Assembly (NCBI GenBank): GCA_002840895.1
Contig: PHCZ01000018.1
Location: 1 to 47,197 of the forward strand
DNA length: 47,197 bases
Source: Bacteroidetes bacterium HGW-Bacteroidetes-8
GTDB lineage: Bacteria; Bacteroidota; Bacteroidia; Bacteroidales; UBA932
Reading direction: 5' to 3'
Position numbers and translations under genes: made by a program. The notes below the pieces were generated by a model, which had not been told where the DNA came from, searched no databases, and saw only the letters and a program-made list of their open reading frames with translations. Below, piece after piece: positions 26,488 to 40,821 of this stretch (position 1 is the first letter of the stretch; each line of letters begins with the position of its first letter).

Positions 26488-27406
26488 ATGGTTGGAGATT
26501 CCGTCAAACTTCTAAGTTGCAACTCTCTTGATGAGATTTCTCACCTTCTTCCAAAAGAGAAGAGGGTGATTGTTATTATTGACTCTAATGTAAAGGCCAT
26601 TTACGGCAAATATGGATATGGAGGCAGACAGGGATACCTTTTTGCTTGCTGTGGGTGGTGGAATAACAACTGATATTGGTGCTTTTACAGCCTCCATCTA
26701 TTTTAGGGGTGTAGATTTTGCACTGGTTCCCACTACTCTGCTTTCTCAGGTAGATGCAGCAATCGGCGGGAAGAACGGAGTCAATCTGGACGGGTACAAA
26801 AATGTTCTGGGAGTCATCCGCCAGCCATCATTTACACTTATCTGCCCGCAATTTTTAAAAACGCTTCCACAAAGCGACATAAAAGGTGGGTTGGCAGAGA
26901 TGCTTAAGACTCTAATTCTCAAAGATAGAGAGGGGTATTGTAAGGCTGCCTCTCTGCTCAAAAGGGGCTACACACTGGATGAGTTGGCTCCATATATCTC
27001 CCGGGCCGCGGCTATTAAGGCTCAGATTGTTGAGAGTGACCAGTTTGAAATTGGAGATCGTAAACTTCTAAATCTTGGTCACACCTTTGCTCACGCTATT
27101 GAGAAGGAGAGTGGCATACCTCACGGAGAGGCCGTTGCAATTGGCATTGTGCTGGCTGCCAGGCTATCTGTTAAGCTTAGGATACTTGCTAGCCAGGAGG
27201 CAAATACAATCGAAGAGGATTTTATTAAAATAGGACTGGAGACAAAATCTCCGTTAAAGCCGGAGCTGCTCTTTTCATCTATGAAGAGAGATAAAAAGAG
27301 ATCCGGCGACTCAATTTCATTTATATTAATCGAGAGGATAGGTAAATGTGTTATCTATCCTGTTCAAATTGCCCGTTTGGAGGAGGCTCTTTATGATTTG
27401 TCTTAG
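26488..27406 (+). pseudogene. aroB: 3-dehydroquinate synthase aroB, internally deleted and frameshifted
   Basis: Residues from two frames are needed. Frame one from ATG 26488 encodes the N-terminal part up to VIVIIDSNVKAIYGKY and stops at 26673. The +1 frame from about 26612 encodes ADRDTFLLAVGGGITTDIGAF, VPTTLLSQVDAAIGGKNGVN, and LNLGHTFAHAIEKESGIPHGE, the NAD- and metal-binding core to the C-terminus. Between them about 30 residues, including the P-GE-K segment that contacts NAD in this family, are absent. An ATG at 26612 could start a 264-aa protein, but it would lack part of the nucleotide-binding fold. Either a true pseudogene or a deletion artefact. The stop overlaps the aroD-aroA start. 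Confidence 0.8.
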
Positions 27407-29444
27407 TATTGGGGTATCGGGGTTAAACAAAGTAACCGATGCTCTCTCAAAGGCACAGTTGGCCGAAATAAGGCTAGACCTGACCAATCTTTCCAGAGAG
27501 GAGACAGTTACTGTTTTCCGTTCAAAAAAAGATCTCATTGCAACAAGCCGAACTTATCAAATCTCTTACGAAGAGAGTAAAAAACGTCTGCTTTGGGCAA
27601 TTTTGGGTACCCGAACAAAGAAATCTACCGGTAAAAGATATATCGACCTGGATTATGACTCTCCGGAAGATTACCGGGATGAGATCATTACTGCTGCTCA
27701 TAAAAGGGGATTCTCCATTATCCTCTCATACCACAATTTTAACGCTACAGAGAGTTACGAGAGGCTTTGTGAGATATATGAGAGTTCCGTAGAGAGGGGT
27801 GCAGATATTGTAAAGATTGTTACCAATGCGAAGAGTATTCAGGAGTGCTCCCGTATTTTGCAGTTGTATAAAAAGTACCCTGTAAATACGCTTGTTGCAT
27901 TTTCTGTAGGGGATGAGGGTAAGTTTACCCGCCTTATATCACACTTCATTGGAGCTCCATTTGTCTACTGCACTCTTGACGACAACTCCAGGACTGCCCC
28001 CGGTCAGTTTACGATTGCCGAGGCAGATAGGCTCATCTCAAAAAAGTTCTATCCGCATCAGGTTTCAAAAAAGGTAATATTGCCAAAGATTACCGCTCCT
28101 GCATCTAAAAGCCACGCTCAGAGAGCTATTCTGTCATCTGCCTGGGCAAAGGGAAAGAGTGTCCTCTATGGCTACACCCCTTGTGCAGATAGCGAAGCGG
28201 CTCTTAATGTGATAAGAACACTTGGGGTTAAGGTGAAGATAGAGAAGTGCAAACTTCCTAAGTTCCGCATTGAGATTATTAGCCCGGGCATTGAAGATCT
28301 CGCTAAAAAACTTGCCAAAGAGGAGATCTTCTCCAAGAATATTAAACCTGTTGAGCTCAATGTGGGAGAATCCGGGCTGTTATGCCGTTTAATGATCCCT
28401 ACAGCCGGTCATCTGCCGGGCAAGAGCAAGGGTGTTAACGAGATCACAATCAAAGGAGAGGGTGGCCTTAACCACCGGGAGCTCTTTGTCTCCGATGAGC
28501 CTTTAAGAGAGTTGGGTCTTGAAATAAAGACTCAGGATGGAAAGCTTCCTGCAGTTATATCCGGTGGGTTAAAGGGTACCTCTCTAAAGATTTCCGGCAA
28601 GGGTGGCTCTCAACTGCTCTCGGGAATGCTTATGTCTCTCCCTCTGTGTGAGAAGAGCAGTGTAATTGAGCTCTCCGAGCCAACCAGCATTCCCTATATA
28701 GACCTCACAATCAAAACGATTAAAGATTTTGGAATCAACGTATCTACAACCGACTACAGAGAGTTTCGCATCCCCGGCAAACAGCGGTACAAGGCAAAGA
28801 CCTTCTTCCCTATTGAGGGAGACTGGAGCGGGGCTTCAATGATACTGGTTGCCGGTGCTATAAAAAACGGGGTGACCGTTACCAATCTGCCGGTTGGGTC
28901 AAAACAGGCAGATGAGAAGATTCTCGATATTTTAAGGGGTTGTGGGGTGGAGATTAACATCACCGAGTATCCGAAGTATCTGGTTATGTGTGGCGATGAG
29001 CCGTGCATTTTTAAAGAGGACGATAAAAAAGAGATAATACTGGGTTCGCAGATAGATATCCCCAAACCCAAAAACCCGCTGCTGCCATTTGAGTTTGATG
29101 CAACCAACTCTCCGGACCTCTTCCCTACCCTTGTGGTGCTTGCGCTCAACTGTGTGGGGACAAGCAAAATTAAAGGGATCCAGAGGCTCTCAAACAAAGA
29201 GAGCAACAGGGCAGAGAGTCTGTTGTGCGAGTTCACAAAATTGGGTGCCCATATAGATATTGAAGGTGACTGGATGATAGTGGAGGGTGGCAGGCTTCAC
29301 GGGGGCTATTGCAGCTCACATAATGACCACAGGATTGCAATGTCCATCATAACTGCGTCACTTAATATAGATCAGAAGGTTTTTATAGATGATCTTAACT
29401 GCATCTCCAAGTCTTTTCCGGATTTTATTAAAAATTTTAAATAA
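27393..29444 (+). CDS. Bifunctional 3-dehydroquinate dehydratase (type I) / EPSP synthase
   Basis: The 683-aa protein starts at the ATG at 27393 (MICLSIGVSG), overlapping aroB by 14 bases. Residues 1-215 are type I AroD: Glu25 in AEIRLD, the general base His114 in SYHNF, and the Schiff-base Lys141 in DIVKIVTNA. From about 228 an AroA domain follows with the substrate-binding PASKSHAQR, LNVGESGLLCRLMIPTAGH, GGSQLLSGMLM, and EFDATNSPDLFPTLVV and NKESNRAESL. It would carry out steps 3 and 6 of the shikimate pathway. The linker is about 10 residues. Both active sites look intact. Confidence 0.94.
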   Translation: MICLSIGVSGLNKVTDALSKAQLAEIRLDLTNLSREETVTVFRSKKDLIATSRTYQISYEESKKRLLWAILGTRTKKSTGKRYIDLDYDSPEDYRDEIITAAHKRGFSIILSYHNFNATESYERLCEIYESSVERGADIVKIVTNAKSIQECSRILQLYKKYPVNTLVAFSVGDEGKFTRLISHFIGAPFVYCTLDDNSRTAPGQFTIAEADRLISKKFYPHQVSKKVILPKITAPASKSHAQRAILSSAWAKGKSVLYGYTPCADSEAALNVIRTLGVKVKIEKCKLPKFRIEIISPGIEDLAKKLAKEEIFSKNIKPVELNVGESGLLCRLMIPTAGHLPGKSKGVNEITIKGEGGLNHRELFVSDEPLRELGLEIKTQDGKLPAVISGGLKGTSLKISGKGGSQLLSGMLMSLPLCEKSSVIELSEPTSIPYIDLTIKTIKDFGINVSTTDYREFRIPGKQRYKAKTFFPIEGDWSGASMILVAGAIKNGVTVTNLPVGSKQADEKILDILRGCGVEINITEYPKYLVMCGDEPCIFKEDDKKEIILGSQIDIPKPKNPLLPFEFDATNSPDLFPTLVVLALNCVGTSKIKGIQRLSNKESNRAESLLCEFTKLGAHIDIEGDWMIVEGGRLHGGYCSSHNDHRIAMSIITASLNIDQKVFIDDLNCISKSFPDFIKNFK

Positions 29445-33386: not shown

Positions 33387-33461
33387 AAATGTAATTTAAC
33401 TGATATGGACCTTTGACTAAAAAAACTGCAATTAGTTTAATTGAACAACTTTGGCAAAGCC

Positions 33462-33497
33462 AAAAAAAAGAGCAGCAAAAATGTGCTGCTCTTTTTT
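33462..33497. terminator. Intrinsic terminator ending the ribosomal operon
   Basis: GAGCAGCA (33470-33477) and TGCTGCTC (33484-33491) form an 8-bp stem with a 6-base loop, with eight A before and six T after, so it can work in both directions. It lies 43 bases after the rplV::rpsC stop. Confidence 0.85.
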
Positions 33498-33539
33498 AGT
33501 TTGCTGTTAACCAGCAAAGACCCACGATGCTTGGCAAGG

Positions 33540-34760
33540 TTACTCTTCCCTGCGTGGTCCTTTGTCGCGTCCACCTGAGTTGCCGCCTCTTCCGCCTCTG
33601 GATTGTCCGCCGCCGCCGCCGCCTCTACGATCGTTGTTACGGTCGTTGTTTCTGCGAGGACGATCGTTGTTACGTCCGGATTGTGGGGCAGATGATGGTC
33701 CTGCGGTTACTCCCATATTTGGAGAGAGGTCTCTCTTTCCGAATATTTCGCCATTGCAGATCCATACTTTAACACCGATTACACCTACTTTGGTATGAGC
33801 CTCAGCGTGTGCGTAGTCGATATCTGCACGGAATGTGTGAAGTGGTGTACGTCCCTCTTTGTAAAGTTCTCTTCTTGCCATCTCGGCTCCACCTAAACGA
33901 CCGCTTACAAGAACCTTGATTCCCTCTGCTCCCATTCTCATTGTGGATGCCATTGCCATTTTAATGGCGCGACGATAAGATACGCGGCCTTCTACCTGAC
34001 GTGCAATATTATTGGCTACAATATTTGCGTCGATTTCCGGTCTCTTTACTTCGAAGATGTTTATCTGAACCTCTTTGTTAGAGATTTTTTTCAACTCCTC
34101 TTTCAGTTTATCTACCTCCTGGCCACCTTTTCCGATAATGATACCGGGACGGGCAGTGTGGATAGTTACTGTGATTAGTTTAAGAGTTCTCTCTATCACG
34201 ATTTTAGAAAGGCTTGCCTTTGCAAGACGAGCATTAAGATATTCGCGAATCTTTGAATCTTCCAATAGTTTCGCAGCATAGTCTTTTCCACCGTACCAGT
34301 TAGAGTCCCAGCCACGGATAATACCAAGTCGGTTTGATATAGGATTTGTCTTTTCGGTTTTTACTTTCTTACCCAACACGATGGTTACGTGGTTAGAACG
34401 CTTACGAATTCTAGCTGCGCGACCTTGTGGTGCTGTTCTGATACGCTTTAGAGAACGACCTTGTCCAACCATAATAGTTTGAACACAAACATTGCCGTTT
34501 TCCAACTCTTTACGATCTGATTCGTTTTTGGCTTCCCAGTTGGCTATTGCCGAACGGAGCAGTTTTTCCAAACGAATAGATGCCTCCTTTTTGGTATACT
34601 TAAGTATATCCAAAGCGCGGTTTACCTCAACTCCTCTGATGATATCTACAACGAGTCTCATCTTTCTAGGAGAGGTAGGAAGATCATTCAGCGATGCAAT
34701 TGCTGTCTGCTTCTTTATTTCTTTACGCCTTTCGGCTGATTCTCTTTTTCGAGCTCCCAT
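33540..34760 (-). CDS. Ribosomal proteins L22 and S3 encoded as one fused reading frame
   Basis: One uninterrupted frame of 406 codons. Residues 1-131 are L22 (rplV): [27 protein letters not shown] and [20 protein letters not shown]. From about 138 it is S3 (rpsC): [18 protein letters not shown], the KH-domain GXXG loop in [37 protein letters not shown] and [11 protein letters not shown]. The join reads [14 protein letters not shown], where S3 normally begins with Met-Gly-Gln-Lys before this block; the L22 stop and S3 ATG are gone. An in-frame GTG-TTG pair at residues 128-129 (34379-34374) could allow internal initiation. The S3 end carries an Asn/Arg/Gly-rich tail (about 360-406) with RGG repeats. 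Confidence 0.93.
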
Positions 34761-34792
34761 TATTGTGAATTTCTTTTACTCATTAACATAAA

Positions 34793-35056
34793 TTAACGAT
34801 TACCCGAGTGACCTTTAAAGGTGCGGGTAGGTGCAAACTCTCCAAGCTTGTGTCCTACCATATTCTCGGTTACATACACCGGAATAAACTTGTTGCCATT
34901 GTGAACAGCAATAGTGTGGCCTACAAAGTCCGGCGATATCATACTGGCTCTTGACCAGGTCTTGATGACCTCCTTTTTACCAGCCTCATTCATAGCAAGT
35001 ACTCTATTCTCGAGACTTGCCTGTATGTATGGTCCTTTTTTCAGTGAACGACTCAT
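34793..35056 (-). CDS. rpsS: Ribosomal protein S19
   Basis: S19 sits in the head of the 30S subunit next to S13. The 87-aa sequence has [35 protein letters not shown] and [19 protein letters not shown], complete for the family. It lies between rplB and the rplV::rpsC frame in the usual S10 order. Confidence 0.97.
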
Positions 35057-35079
35057 AATTCTCTTTTCAGTTTAATCCG

Positions 35080-35904
35080 TTATTTTTTCCTTCTTTCAAT
35101 TATGAACTTCTTGGTTGTCTTTTTAGGATTACGTGTTTTGTAACCTTTGGCAAGCAAGCCTTTTCTAGAACGAGGGTGACCTCCGGAAGCACGTCCTTCT
35201 CCACCACCCATCGGGTGATCTACAGGGTTCATCGCTACACCGCGAACACGAGGTCTGCGGCCAAACCAACGATTTCTTCCTGCTTTTCCGAACGATTCAA
35301 GATTGTGATCTGAATTGGATACAGTTCCAACAGTTGCACGGCAGGTAACAAGTACCATCCTAATCTCACTTGAAGGGAGTTTAAGGATAGCGTGTTTTCC
35401 TTCTCTTGCAGTTAATTGAGCATAAGTTCCGGCACTGCGGGCCATTGCGGCTCCCTGTCCCGGGCGTAACTCAATGTTGTGAACTAGTGTACCCAACGGG
35501 ATCTCTGAAAGAGGTAGAGTGTTCCCAATTTCTGGGGCTACTCCGGGTCCGGATGCTATTACCTGACCCACTTTAATTCCGTTAGGAGCTATTATATAGC
35601 GTTTCTCTCCATCTGCATATAAAACCAGGGCAATTCGTGCACTCCTGTTAGGGTCGTACTCGATGGTCTTTACTGTAGCTGTATAATTGTCCTTATCTCT
35701 AAGGAAGTCAATCATACGGTACATTCTTTTGTGACCGCCTCCGATATAACGCATTGTCATCTTTCCCCTGTCATTTCTTCCACCGGATTTGCTGATAGGC
35801 GCTAAAAGCGACTTCTCCGGTTTATCGCAGGTGATCTCAGTAAATGCGCTTATTGCTTTATGTCTTGTACCGGGTGTTACCGGCTTGAATTTACGTATTG
35901 CCAT
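35080..35904 (-). CDS. rplB: Ribosomal protein L2
   Basis: L2 is needed for subunit joining and peptidyl transfer. The ATG at 35904 gives [16 protein letters not shown]; the longer open frame to 35943 overlaps rplW. Blocks [60 protein letters not shown] and the C-terminal [19 protein letters not shown] (with the conserved His) are complete. 274 aa, 4 bases after rplW. Confidence 0.97.
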
Positions 35905-35908
35905 GGAC

Positions 35909-36199
35909 TTAAATATTACTGTAGAAATCAATCTTATCTTCACTGGCCAATGTTACAATCGCTTTCTTGAAGTGATTGGTACGACCTGACAATAATCCCG
36001 CTTTAGTGAAGCGGCTTTTACGTTTCCCGTGGTAGTTAATTGTATTTACATCCAATACTTTAACTCCGTAAATCTCCTCAACCGCAGCCTTGATCTCAAT
36101 CTTATTGGCATTGCGGTCAACTACAAAACCGTAACGATTCAACTTCTCGCCCTGAATCGTCATCTTTTCTGTTACTATAGGCTTAATTAAAATTTCCAT
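35909..36199 (-). CDS. rplW: Ribosomal protein L23
   Basis: L23 lines the peptide exit and docks SRP and trigger factor. The 96-aa sequence has [32 protein letters not shown] and [20 protein letters not shown] and ends DFYSNI, typical of Bacteroidetes L23. Nothing is missing. Confidence 0.96.
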
Positions 36200-36210
36200 T
36201 GTTCCACGGT

Positions 36211-36843
36211 TTAATTATTTCCATACTGCCCCTGCAGGATATCCTGAACACCATCCATAAGGATAAGAGATGTAGCGTTAACCACATCGTAGGTGTTAAG
36301 TTCGTTAACGTTAATTACCTTAACGTTTTGCAGGTTACGTGAAGAGATGTAAATATTACTCACATTTTCCGGAAGCACAAACAGAACTCTTCTGTCGTTA
36401 ATCTTAAGTCCTTTAAGAATCTTCATAAAGTCCTTAGTTCTTGGAGCCTCCATTGAGAAGTTTTCAATGATTGTCAACGACTCCTCTTGCACCTTATAAG
36501 AGAGTGCAGAGAAACGTGCCAGTTGTTTTAACTTCTTGTTAAGCTTAAATCTATAATCCCTTGGTCTCGGTCCGAAAACACGTCCACCACCAACATAGAT
36601 GTTTGCTTTAATACTACCGTGACGAGCACCGCCTGAGCCTTTCTGACGAACGACCTTTTTAGTACTGTATGCCACTTCCCACTTCTCCTTTGTCTTGTGA
36701 GTTCCCTGACGCTGGTTGGCCAGATACTGCTTCACATCAAGGTAAATAGCGTGATCGTTTGGCTCTATACCAAAGATACCGGGATCCAAAGTCACCAATT
36801 TTCCTGACTCTGTTCCATCAATTTTGTAAACTGATAATTCCAT
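36211..36843 (-). CDS. rplD: Ribosomal protein L4
   Basis: L4 reaches the exit tunnel with a long loop. Seen are EPNDHAIYLDVKQYLANQRQ, the loop QKGSGGARHGSIKANIYVGG, GGRVFGPRPRDYRFKLNKK and VNELNTYDVVNATSLILM. 210 aa is normal. In some bacteria L4 represses its own operon through the 5' leader; the rplC leader hairpin described below could be tested for this. Confidence 0.96.
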   Translation of the reverse strand: MELSVYKIDGTESGKLVTLDPGIFGIEPNDHAIYLDVKQYLANQRQGTHKTKEKWEVAYSTKKVVRQKGSGGARHGSIKANIYVGGGRVFGPRPRDYRFKLNKKLKQLARFSALSYKVQEESLTIIENFSMEAPRTKDFMKILKGLKINDRRVLFVLPENVSNIYISSRNLQNVKVINVNELNTYDVVNATSLILMDGVQDILQGQYGNN

Positions 36844-36849
36844 ATACGC

Positions 36850-37464
36850 TTATTCCTCCACGATTACATATGAACCCTTAGCACCGGGAACAGATCCCTT
36901 AACTATCAGAAGATTATTCTCTGGAATAATCTTTAGAACTCTTAGGTTCTGTATTTTCACCTGATCGCCACCCATACGGCCGGCCAATCTTTTTCCTTTA
37001 AATACTCTTGAAGGCCAAGATGATGCGCCCATTGAACCGGGAGCACGAAGTCTGTTGTGCTGACCGTGGGTCTGACCACCAACTCCGCTGAATCCGTGGC
37101 GTTTCACAACCCCCTGGAATCCTTTTCCTTTAGATATTCCTACAACATCTACCCATTCCAATGTATCGTGTCCAAATACATCTGCAACGGTAACAGTGTC
37201 ACCTAGCTGAAACTCCTTTAAAAAGTCGTTTTTAAACTCTACGACTTTGCGCTTAGGTGTGGTGTTTGCCTTTTTAAAGTGACCCGACAGGCCACCGCTG
37301 GTGTGTTTTTCCTTTTTTTCGTCATAGGCAAGCTGTACAGCGGCATAACCATCTTTCTCTTCTGTACGTACTTGCGTAACAACACACGGACCAGCCTCAA
37401 TAACGGTGCATGGAATATTTTTTCCATCGGCACCAAAAACAGAAGTCATTATTAATCCAGGCAT
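36850..37464 (-). CDS. rplC: Ribosomal protein L3, N-terminal GKKIG block missing
   Basis: L3 is essential early in 50S assembly. The body is complete: [53 protein letters not shown], the loop [18 protein letters not shown] with the methylatable Gln region, and [13 protein letters not shown]. The N-terminus reads [16 protein letters not shown], whereas L3 proteins normally have GLxGKK(I/V)GMT; five residues (15 bases) are absent. No other start codon restores them. It is the first gene of the operon here; rpsJ is not upstream. Confidence 0.95.
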
Positions 37465-37502
37465 TGGTTTTTAATTTGGTGTTTTTTAAATAATTAATAC
37501 TA

Positions 37503-37521
37503 CCCGCACAAAAAATGCGGG
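37503..37521 (-). promoter_or_regulatory. Leader hairpin at the 5' end of the rplC operon mRNA
   Basis: CCCGCA (37503-37508) and TGCGGG (37516-37521) pair around a 7-base U-rich loop in the RNA. With transcription start predicted close to 37518, the hairpin is at the extreme 5' end of the message. It could protect the mRNA or serve autoregulation. Confidence 0.5.
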
Positions 37522-37524
37522 CTG

Positions 37525-37554
37525 CAAAGATACAATAAAAAGTTATAATTGCAA
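37525..37554 (-). promoter_or_regulatory. Promoter of the shortened S10 operon
   Basis: On the minus strand TTG (37554-37552), 19 bases, TATCTTTG (37532-37525). It lies about 60 bases before the rplC ATG, showing that the operon starts at rplC in this genome. Confidence 0.75.
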
Positions 37555-37634
37555 TAGCTCAGGCGAATATATTAACAAGATATGAACACTCTTCCTGCAC
37601 TTTTTTGATTGCGGCTATTTCACATCCAAGCGAG

Positions 37635-37772
37635 GCATCTGCCTGCAAGATTAACTTCTTTGTTCTGCTTTCTGTGAGCTTTCAAATAAAAAAGCAATGC
37701 ATCTGCCTGCAAGATTAACTTCTTTGTTATGCTTCCTGGCAGGGAGTTTAGGTTAACAGGGAGTTTAGGTTA
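37635..37772. repeat. Two direct-repeat pairs at the marC 3' end
   Basis: A 38-bp unit beginning GCATCTGCCTGCAAGATTAA is present at 37635-37672 and 37699-37736 with two or three mismatches. Directly beside it CAGGGAGTTTAGGTTA occurs at 37740-37755 and 37757-37772; the second pair covers the last codons and stop of marC, so the duplication has shaped its C-terminus. Confidence 0.8.
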
Positions 37773-39578: not shown

Positions 39579-39655
39579 TACTCGGGACGGGAATCGAACC
39601 CGTACGGGCATTTCTGCCCACAGGATTTTAAGTCCTGCGTGTCTACCTATTCCAC
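39579..39655 (-). tRNA. tRNA-Leu (UAA) lacking its 5' acceptor strand
   Basis: On the minus strand the D arm (GTGGAATAGGTAGACAC), anticodon arm CAGGA-CTTAAAA-TCCTG with anticodon TAA, long variable arm GGGCAGAAATGCCC, T arm ACGGG-TTCGATT-CCCGT and 3' acceptor strand CCCGAGT plus A are present. The matching 5' strand ACTCGGG is absent: the bases before the D arm are TCTTCAAAG and run straight into tRNA-Gly after 8 bases. A normal acceptor would collide with that gene. Broken gene or deletion artefact. Confidence 0.8.
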
Positions 39656-39663
39656 CTTTGAAG

Positions 39664-39795: not shown

Positions 39796-40821
39796 TTAAA
39801 TAACGGTTTCAAACTCTTTGAGGAAACGGATGTCGTTTTCGAAGTAGTGGCGAAGGTCTTTCACCTGCCACTTTAGCATCGCGATGCGTTCGATGCCCAT
39901 CCCGAAAGCGAAGCCGGTGTAGACATTGCTGTCAATACCGTTAGCTTCCAAAACATTGGGGTCTACCATTCCGCAACCCATAATCTCCAGCCAGCCGGTT
40001 CCTTTGCAGATGTTGCACCCTTTGCCTTTGCAGATGTTACAACTTACGTCCACCTCGGCGCTCGGCTCGGTGAAAGGGAAGTAGGATGGGCGAAGGCGAA
40101 TCTGGGCATCTTCGCCGAACATTTCACGGACGAAAAGCAGAACAGCCTGTTTAAGATCTGCAAATGAGACCTTTTTGTCTATATATAGCCCCTCAACCTG
40201 GTGAAAGATGCAGTGGGCGCGTGCAGATATCGCTTCGTTACGGAAAACTCTTCCCGGGCATACTATTCTGATGGGGAGCTTCATCTCCTCCATTGCTCTC
40301 ACCTGAACCGAGCTGGTGTGTGTGCGCAAAAGGACAGGGTTGTCGCCGCCGGAGATAAAAAAGGTATCCTGCATATCTCTGGCCGGATGCTCGGGCGGGA
40401 AGTTGAGTGCCCCAAATACGTGCCAGTCATCCTCAATCTCCGGCCCCTCTGCAAGAACGTATCCGAACTTATTGAAAATTGAGAGAATCTCGTCTCTGGT
40501 AATTGATATGGGGTGTCTGCCACCAAGCTCCACAAGGTCTCCCGGTTTTGTAAGGTCATATTTTGAGTCTACCGGCTGTTGGTTCTCCTCCAAAAATGAT
40601 TTGAGCTCTTCAATCTTTTGAGTTGCCGCCACTTTCAGTTTGTTCAAAACCTGACCCAACTCACGCTTCTGCTCCGGAAGAACATCACGAAATTCGTCAA
40701 AAAGCTGAGTAACAGAGCCTTTTTTCCCCAACAATTTTACTCTAATCTCCTCTATCTCCTGTTCCTTTTGAGCCTTAAGCTCCTCAATTTCGGCAAGCAG
40801 CCTCTCTATTTTCTCTTTCAT
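39796..40821 (-). CDS. pheS: Phenylalanyl-tRNA synthetase alpha subunit
   Basis: PheS is the catalytic subunit of the alpha2beta2 enzyme. An N-terminal coiled coil (about 1-85) precedes ELGGRHPISITRDEI, the motif 2 region GRVFRNEAISARAHCIFHQV, FPFTEPSAEVDV, a Cys-rich insert CNICKGKGCNICKGTG, and motif 3 GFAFGMGIERIAMLKW. 341 aa is normal. pheT is not adjacent, as is usual in Bacteroidetes. A -7 box is upstream. Confidence 0.97.
   Translation of the reverse strand: MKEKIERLLAEIEELKAQKEQEIEEIRVKLLGKKGSVTQLFDEFRDVLPEQKRELGQVLNKLKVAATQKIEELKSFLEENQQPVDSKYDLTKPGDLVELGGRHPISITRDEILSIFNKFGYVLAEGPEIEDDWHVFGALNFPPEHPARDMQDTFFISGGDNPVLLRTHTSSVQVRAMEEMKLPIRIVCPGRVFRNEAISARAHCIFHQVEGLYIDKKVSFADLKQAVLLFVREMFGEDAQIRLRPSYFPFTEPSAEVDVSCNICKGKGCNICKGTGWLEIMGCGMVDPNVLEANGIDSNVYTGFAFGMGIERIAMLKWQVKDLRHYFENDIRFLKEFETVI

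Follow-up and report, generated by a model that had tools for sequence, protein, structure and literature searches.

An apparent L22-S3 fusion frame in a Bacteroidales genome: a probable assembly artefact

The ordinary rplV-rpsC pair of Bacteroidota, in the S10 operon, consists of two genes that come in the same order as in the locus described here, but it has 25 nt, with the end and stop codon of L22 and the start of S3, that our locus is without. Covalent linkage of the two ribosomal subunits, the idea that an L22-S3 fusion would share, is described for Ribo-T (PMC6389949; PMC6718428). An L22 with a C-terminal extension is likewise represented by the NCBIfam model NF008917 (PRK12279, 50S ribosomal protein L22/unknown domain fusion protein). 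Our frame, however, scored only 59.9 bits against this model, whose cut-off is 526; the L22 part alone matched, and S3 is absent from the model name. No L22-S3 fusion protein was recognisable from the titles among the matches listed in literature searches.

The locus lies in a window of 47,197 bp, the whole stretch of DNA that was analysed, which corresponds to the entire contig C4 of the assembly. In the window sequence, a single minus-strand frame at 33540-34760 comprises 406 codons and a stop, and profiles matched both halves. This confirms the preliminary description, in which L22 and S3 had been read as one continuous frame of 406 codons. The frame is made up as follows (coordinates in the window):

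33540..34760, minus strand: apparent fused rplV-rpsC reading frame, 406 aa (ORF and profile matches)
34353..34760, minus strand: L22 (uL22) half, residues 1-136 (profile matches)
34374-34697, minus strand: Pfam L22 domain, residues 22-129 (Pfam)
34350..34355, minus strand: join between L22 and S3 (alignment to the genomes G016 and G008)
33543..34352, minus strand: S3 (uS3) half, residues 137-406, without the native MGQ start (profile match and alignment)

The first half qualifies as a full-length bacterial uL22, with matches above cut-off to rplV_bact (NCBIfam TIGR01044, residues 29-128, 93.4 bits against a cut-off of 73.65) and to PF00237 (107.8 bits). The second half matched rpsC_bact (NCBIfam TIGR01009, residues 136-342, 277.5 bits against a cut-off of 114.5), and both the KH domain and the C-terminal domain expected of uS3 scored above their cut-offs (PF07650, KH_2, 70.1 bits; PF00189, S3_C, 122.3 bits). 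Carrying two known domains at full length, the frame is not a product of chance. The conserved MGQK N-terminus of uS3 is missing from it, and residues of the L22 tail stand in place of MGQ; the M, G and Q columns are at least 90% conserved in the 18 aligned rows. In the protein alignment, the linker between L22 and S3 corresponds to the variable tail of L22. The tail of S3 (33543-33740, minus strand) is long and rich in Gly, Arg and Asn, and its length differs among relatives. The AlphaFold2 model of the fusion was poor (mean pLDDT 58.5, pTM 0.37).

Nucleotide alignment showed that 25 nt present in both G016, the nearest genome, and G008 are absent at the join. The missing stretch holds the last codons of L22, its stop, one base and the start of S3 with MGQ. 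On either side of the join the DNA is almost identical to that of G016, and identity to G016 is 100% over the aligned L22 stretch and 96% over S3. In G016 and G008, rplV and rpsC are separate and one base apart, and separate genes with an MGQK start were also seen in 24 of the 24 relatives' loci listed, for which MGQK was the search word. Thus, the S3 start Met and the L22 stop are indeed gone from the window, as had been stated before, and are in place in these relatives. A close relative in which a stop and an ATG belonging to S3 separate the two parts had been named in advance as one observation that would refute the fusion; G016 and G008 are two such relatives. The 25-nt gap has five equivalent placements, and a 4-nt run of A is common to both of its edges. 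This exact placement led us to drop slippage between AAAAGA repeats, which we had considered.

L22 and S3 are far apart in the ribosome. A linker of about 20 residues could thus hardly serve both sites of one ribosome, and a fusion would therefore need either cleavage or internal initiation. By the first route, a real and recent 25-nt deletion would have produced an L22-S3 polyprotein that is cut by a housekeeping protease in an exposed, Lys-rich linker, leaving a short tail on L22 and changing the N-terminus of S3. That the frame is kept, that both domains are full length and highly conserved, and that the linker falls within the variable L22 tail are all consistent with such cleavage; the 4-nt repeat at the edges is compatible with slippage, which also counts against an artefact. 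Yet S3 would lose MGQ, a motif that hardly varies among the aligned relatives, no second fusion was found in four genome searches, and the same assembly carries presumably lethal or damaging losses in S13, L3 and aroB. We regard cleavage of a genuine polyprotein as most improbable.

By the second route, after a real deletion, free S3 would come from internal initiation, and the fusion would supply L22 with S3 dangling from it. The preliminary description had proposed internal initiation at the GTG/TTG near residue 128, and these two codons are the only in-frame ATG, GTG or TTG between codons 100 and 165:

34374..34379 (34379 and 34376), minus strand: GTG128/TTG129, candidate internal S3 starts (codon scan)

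GTG128 has A at -3 and -6, and adenines at these positions favour initiation in Flavobacterium (PMC6847099). Against this, the codon is GTG rather than ATG, and a predicted accessibility of 0.39 puts it close to the mean of the frame (0.43), as opposed to 0.71 at the S3 ATG of G016. Moreover, the same GTG/TTG pair is found in G016 and G008, which are both unfused. It follows that the pair did not arise with the join and is no adaptation to it. The losses in S13, L3 and aroB weigh against this route as well, and we find it scarcely credible. Taking the two mechanisms together, a real fusion seems very unlikely.

A search of relatives for the same join had been suggested, and it returned the join in the window's own genome only. 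In four genome searches, the window's own frame was the only stop-free span over both proteins. The sets searched, which overlap, comprised 60 relatives, of which 55 matched; 299 genomes from the family, 108 of them matching at E<=1e-130; 393 from the order, 116 of them matching at E<=1e-128; and 395 from the phylum, 71 of them matching at E<=1e-110. Only genomes matching at those cut-offs were judged, and the scope of the result is the phylum. Among the 126 loci with a match, which include 80 named contigs, two came from the window's own genome and both were fused. Outside that genome, L22 and S3 were fused in 0 of 124 loci, some of which are partial and some repeats of one genome. A genuine fusion would be expected to have its join in common with at least one relative or independent assembly, and no such case was found in these searches. 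Fusions in G007, G032, G038, G046, G195 and G010 had been suspected from open-frame lengths that ignore stops, and the retrieved sequences had no stop-free frame over both proteins. Another assembly of the genus (G007:C18, locus L033) has a different deletion near the same site, in the first part of S3, which is frameshifted some 54 nt past its ATG; that G007 has an S3 lesion of its own counts for an artefact.

The assembly to which the window belongs has 2,903,425 bases in 22 contigs, with 95.7% completeness and 2.4% contamination, and its single match to L22 and single match to the fused protein mark the only L22/S3 locus found in it (2.9 Mb). We compared C4 and a second contig, C17 (333 kb), 380 kb together, with 420 kb of collinear sequence from G016; about 288 kb align, at a mean identity of about 87%. 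Indels were called clean when they were at least 12 nt long and both flanks (up to 60 nt) were at least 88% identical. There were 13 clean indels, 11 losses and two gains in this assembly. A clear gene is affected by eight of the 13, every one of them a loss here and none a gain; they fall in L3, L22/S3, aroB, L16, S13, a NuoE-like gene, a tRNA-Leu and, at a gap of N, the start of a further gene. The five others, including both gains, are intergenic, at gene edges or in unassigned frames. Apart from the L22-S3 join, the features concerned are:

36850..37464, minus strand: rplC (L3), 15 nt (GKKVG) missing at about 37451 relative to G016 (indel audit)
C17, about 147860, locus L136:7459-7863: L16, 15 nt (LQPKK) missing (indel audit)
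C17, 139846-140136, locus L196: S13, 43 nt lost, with a frameshift through the HRLGLPVRGQ region (indel audit)
26488..27406, plus strand: aroB (3-dehydroquinate synthase), 83-nt deletion and frameshift at about 26612-26614 (alignment to G016)
39581..39657, minus strand: truncated tRNA-Leu-like sequence, whose 5' end is gone through a 57-nt loss beside tRNA-Gly (indel audit and ARAGORN)
C17:89280, locus L133:8825-9346: NuoE-like gene, 15-nt in-frame deletion of about GKPGE (Pfam 2Fe-2S_thioredx)
C17:157782-157785: run of four N replacing 221 nt of G016, at a gene start (indel audit)

The start region of L3 (37449-37464, minus strand) is altered here, where G016 has MPGLIGKKVGMTSVF; the L3 start was of the GLIG or GLLG type in 60 loci (the pattern required that G), and the shortened start was present in none of the relatives' loci scanned. 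L16 begins with MSKFRR in place of MLQPKKTKFRR, and an ML(Q/A)PKKT start was seen in 25 of the 25 relatives' loci in which the pattern found it. The S13 profile gave 67 bits here, as against 100-116 bits and full length in the other 25 of the 26 matching genomes (27 searched). The damaged S13 is the only copy found, and the same holds for the broken aroB; with the assembly 95.7% complete, a second copy of either could lie outside it. The aroB frame was open in all three of the other matching genomes (five searched, one without a match), and in the window the C-terminal part still matches DHQ synthase. Identity to G016 is higher on the left side of the aroB break, which is possibly a join of two strains. 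ARAGORN found tRNA-Leu (taa) and tRNA-Gly in G016 and only tRNA-Gly here. At 39797, where a 342-codon frame ends, a further 96 nt of G016 are missing; this site is upstream of tRNA-Gly. The gene that has lost its start at the N gap on C17 is presumably a 3-oxoacyl-ACP synthase. The N run shows scaffolding of pieces at this point, with a mis-sized gap.

Surroundings free of comparable lesions, as one would expect of a genuine fusion, were not found in the audited contigs: L3, L16, S13, aroB, the NuoE-like gene and tRNA-Leu all show losses. With S13 and aroB, losses not to be expected in a viable cell affect essential genes found in single copy in an assembly that is 95.7% complete, as would be expected of an assembly artefact. 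A usable frame is kept in three of the four ribosomal lesions (L3, L16 and the fusion, not S13), which counts against an artefact. A cell with such S13, L3 and L16 proteins and a fused L22-S3 would be extraordinary, and it is highly improbable that a living member of the Bacteroidales makes L22 and S3 as one chain, cut or internally started, along with shortened L3, L16 and S13.

The one-sidedness expected of assembly losses is evident at the clean sites (11 losses, two gains) and weaker without the filter, where indels of at least 10 nt with a length not a multiple of 3 numbered 20 losses and 14 gains, a count that speaks against an artefact but is hard to use at 87% identity, at which gaps compensate each other. 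Given these unfiltered numbers, the one-sidedness is confined to clean sites. Among positions passing the filter, 9.5% belong to ribosomal genes, by a hand-made list that may miss some, and of the six losses in protein genes not at the N gap, four lie in these genes (P 0.001); the value was 0.002 for four of seven and, by hand, about 0.004 for four of eight. A first figure of 3e-5 was replaced by 0.001-0.002, as the flank filter favours conserved genes. Direct repeats at the deletion edges measured 4 nt at the L22-S3 join and 2 nt at aroB, and exact placement relative to G016 gave no microhomology at the edges of L3, L16, S13 and the NuoE-like gene. Because four of these six losses have no microhomology, slippage probably does not account for them as a group.

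When ORFs of at least 70 aa were compared, L22-S3 alone among 264 conserved genes corresponded to two ORFs in G016, and the reverse case, one ORF in G016 and two here, occurred in 0 of 267 conserved genes, which counts against an artefact. This test missed aroB and S13, and the reading of the assembly as clean to which it had led was overturned by shorter ORFs and by the nucleotide indel audit. The comparison of shorter ORFs flagged aroB on C4; the other flagged rows, except L22-S3, were short or antisense frames by eye. Several losses in one genome, with a join that is absent from the other genomes searched, might also be genuine mutations, in a lineage undergoing decay or in DNA that is dead. 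Decay should, however, hit dispensable genes first, and the losses are over-represented in ribosomal genes; moreover, the assembly amounts to 2.9 Mb at 95.7% completeness and shows no general load of split genes. Decay is thus a far-fetched account of the lesions.

The fused frame closes a cluster, L3-L4-L23-L2-S19-L22-S3, that lies within 33400-37750 of the window and ends at S3; L16 is on the separate contig C17, with L29, S17, L14 and L24. We considered that the operon break was made by assembly and rejected this, as S3 ends the cluster in G016 too, where it is followed by the same two genes. The break after S3 is thus a feature of the group and not of this assembly alone. A likely terminator hairpin was seen by eye 3' of S3, at about 33455-33495. 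A gene for 122 aa is next after S3, as it is in G016, and on the upstream side of L3 there is a gene of the MarC family. Elsewhere in the window, type I 3-dehydroquinase and EPSP synthase form one frame of 698 aa (27348-29444, plus strand); this fusion looks real, because G016 has a similar frame (690 aa).

We conclude that the L22-S3 fusion is very probably an assembly artefact, and that rplV and rpsC are probably ordinary separate genes in the organism. Among the grounds for this reading are that the same assembly shows further losses in essential or conserved genes, two of them frameshifted; that the frames of S13 and aroB are broken and neither gene was found in a second copy; and that mutations that survive should avoid ribosomal genes, yet four of six losses fall there. 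The suggestion that the join may be a deletion artefact is therefore supported, by the 25 missing nt and by the other losses in the assembly, and the covalent fusion tying the subunits together, which had also been put forward, is not, given the losses in S13, aroB, L3, L16 and tRNA-Leu. Assemblers tend to break in conserved DNA common to related organisms of one sample, and deletion errors occur at joins in metagenome-type assemblies. In the organism, rplV and rpsC would be separate, with a single base between them as is the case for G016 and G008; an assembler or scaffolder would have connected two pieces over a very conserved region and lost 25 nt in doing so; and this loss would be in frame by chance (about 1 in 3), giving one reading frame. 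The losses of the assembly may all share this technical cause, in which ends of pieces at conserved sites are joined with loss of bases.

Were the fusion genuine, a protein of the large ribosomal subunit would be covalently linked in nature to one of the small subunit, and the cell would need a new step, either of processing or of initiation. As an artefact, it is a warning that losses in conserved genes, some of them in frame, can mimic biology; automatic annotation would report them as a fusion protein or as shortened ribosomal proteins. The pattern of losses came to light without the reads, once several of the assembly's conserved genes were set against those of a single close relative. The pattern resembles the join-deletion errors of metagenome-type assemblies, in which the same short losses appear at conserved sites and an N gap hides bases; as in those errors, the genes that are hit have no biology in common. 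From Ribo-T the locus differs in that Ribo-T is engineered and joined through the 16S and 23S rRNAs (PMC6389949; PMC6718428), whereas the apparent joining here is of proteins.
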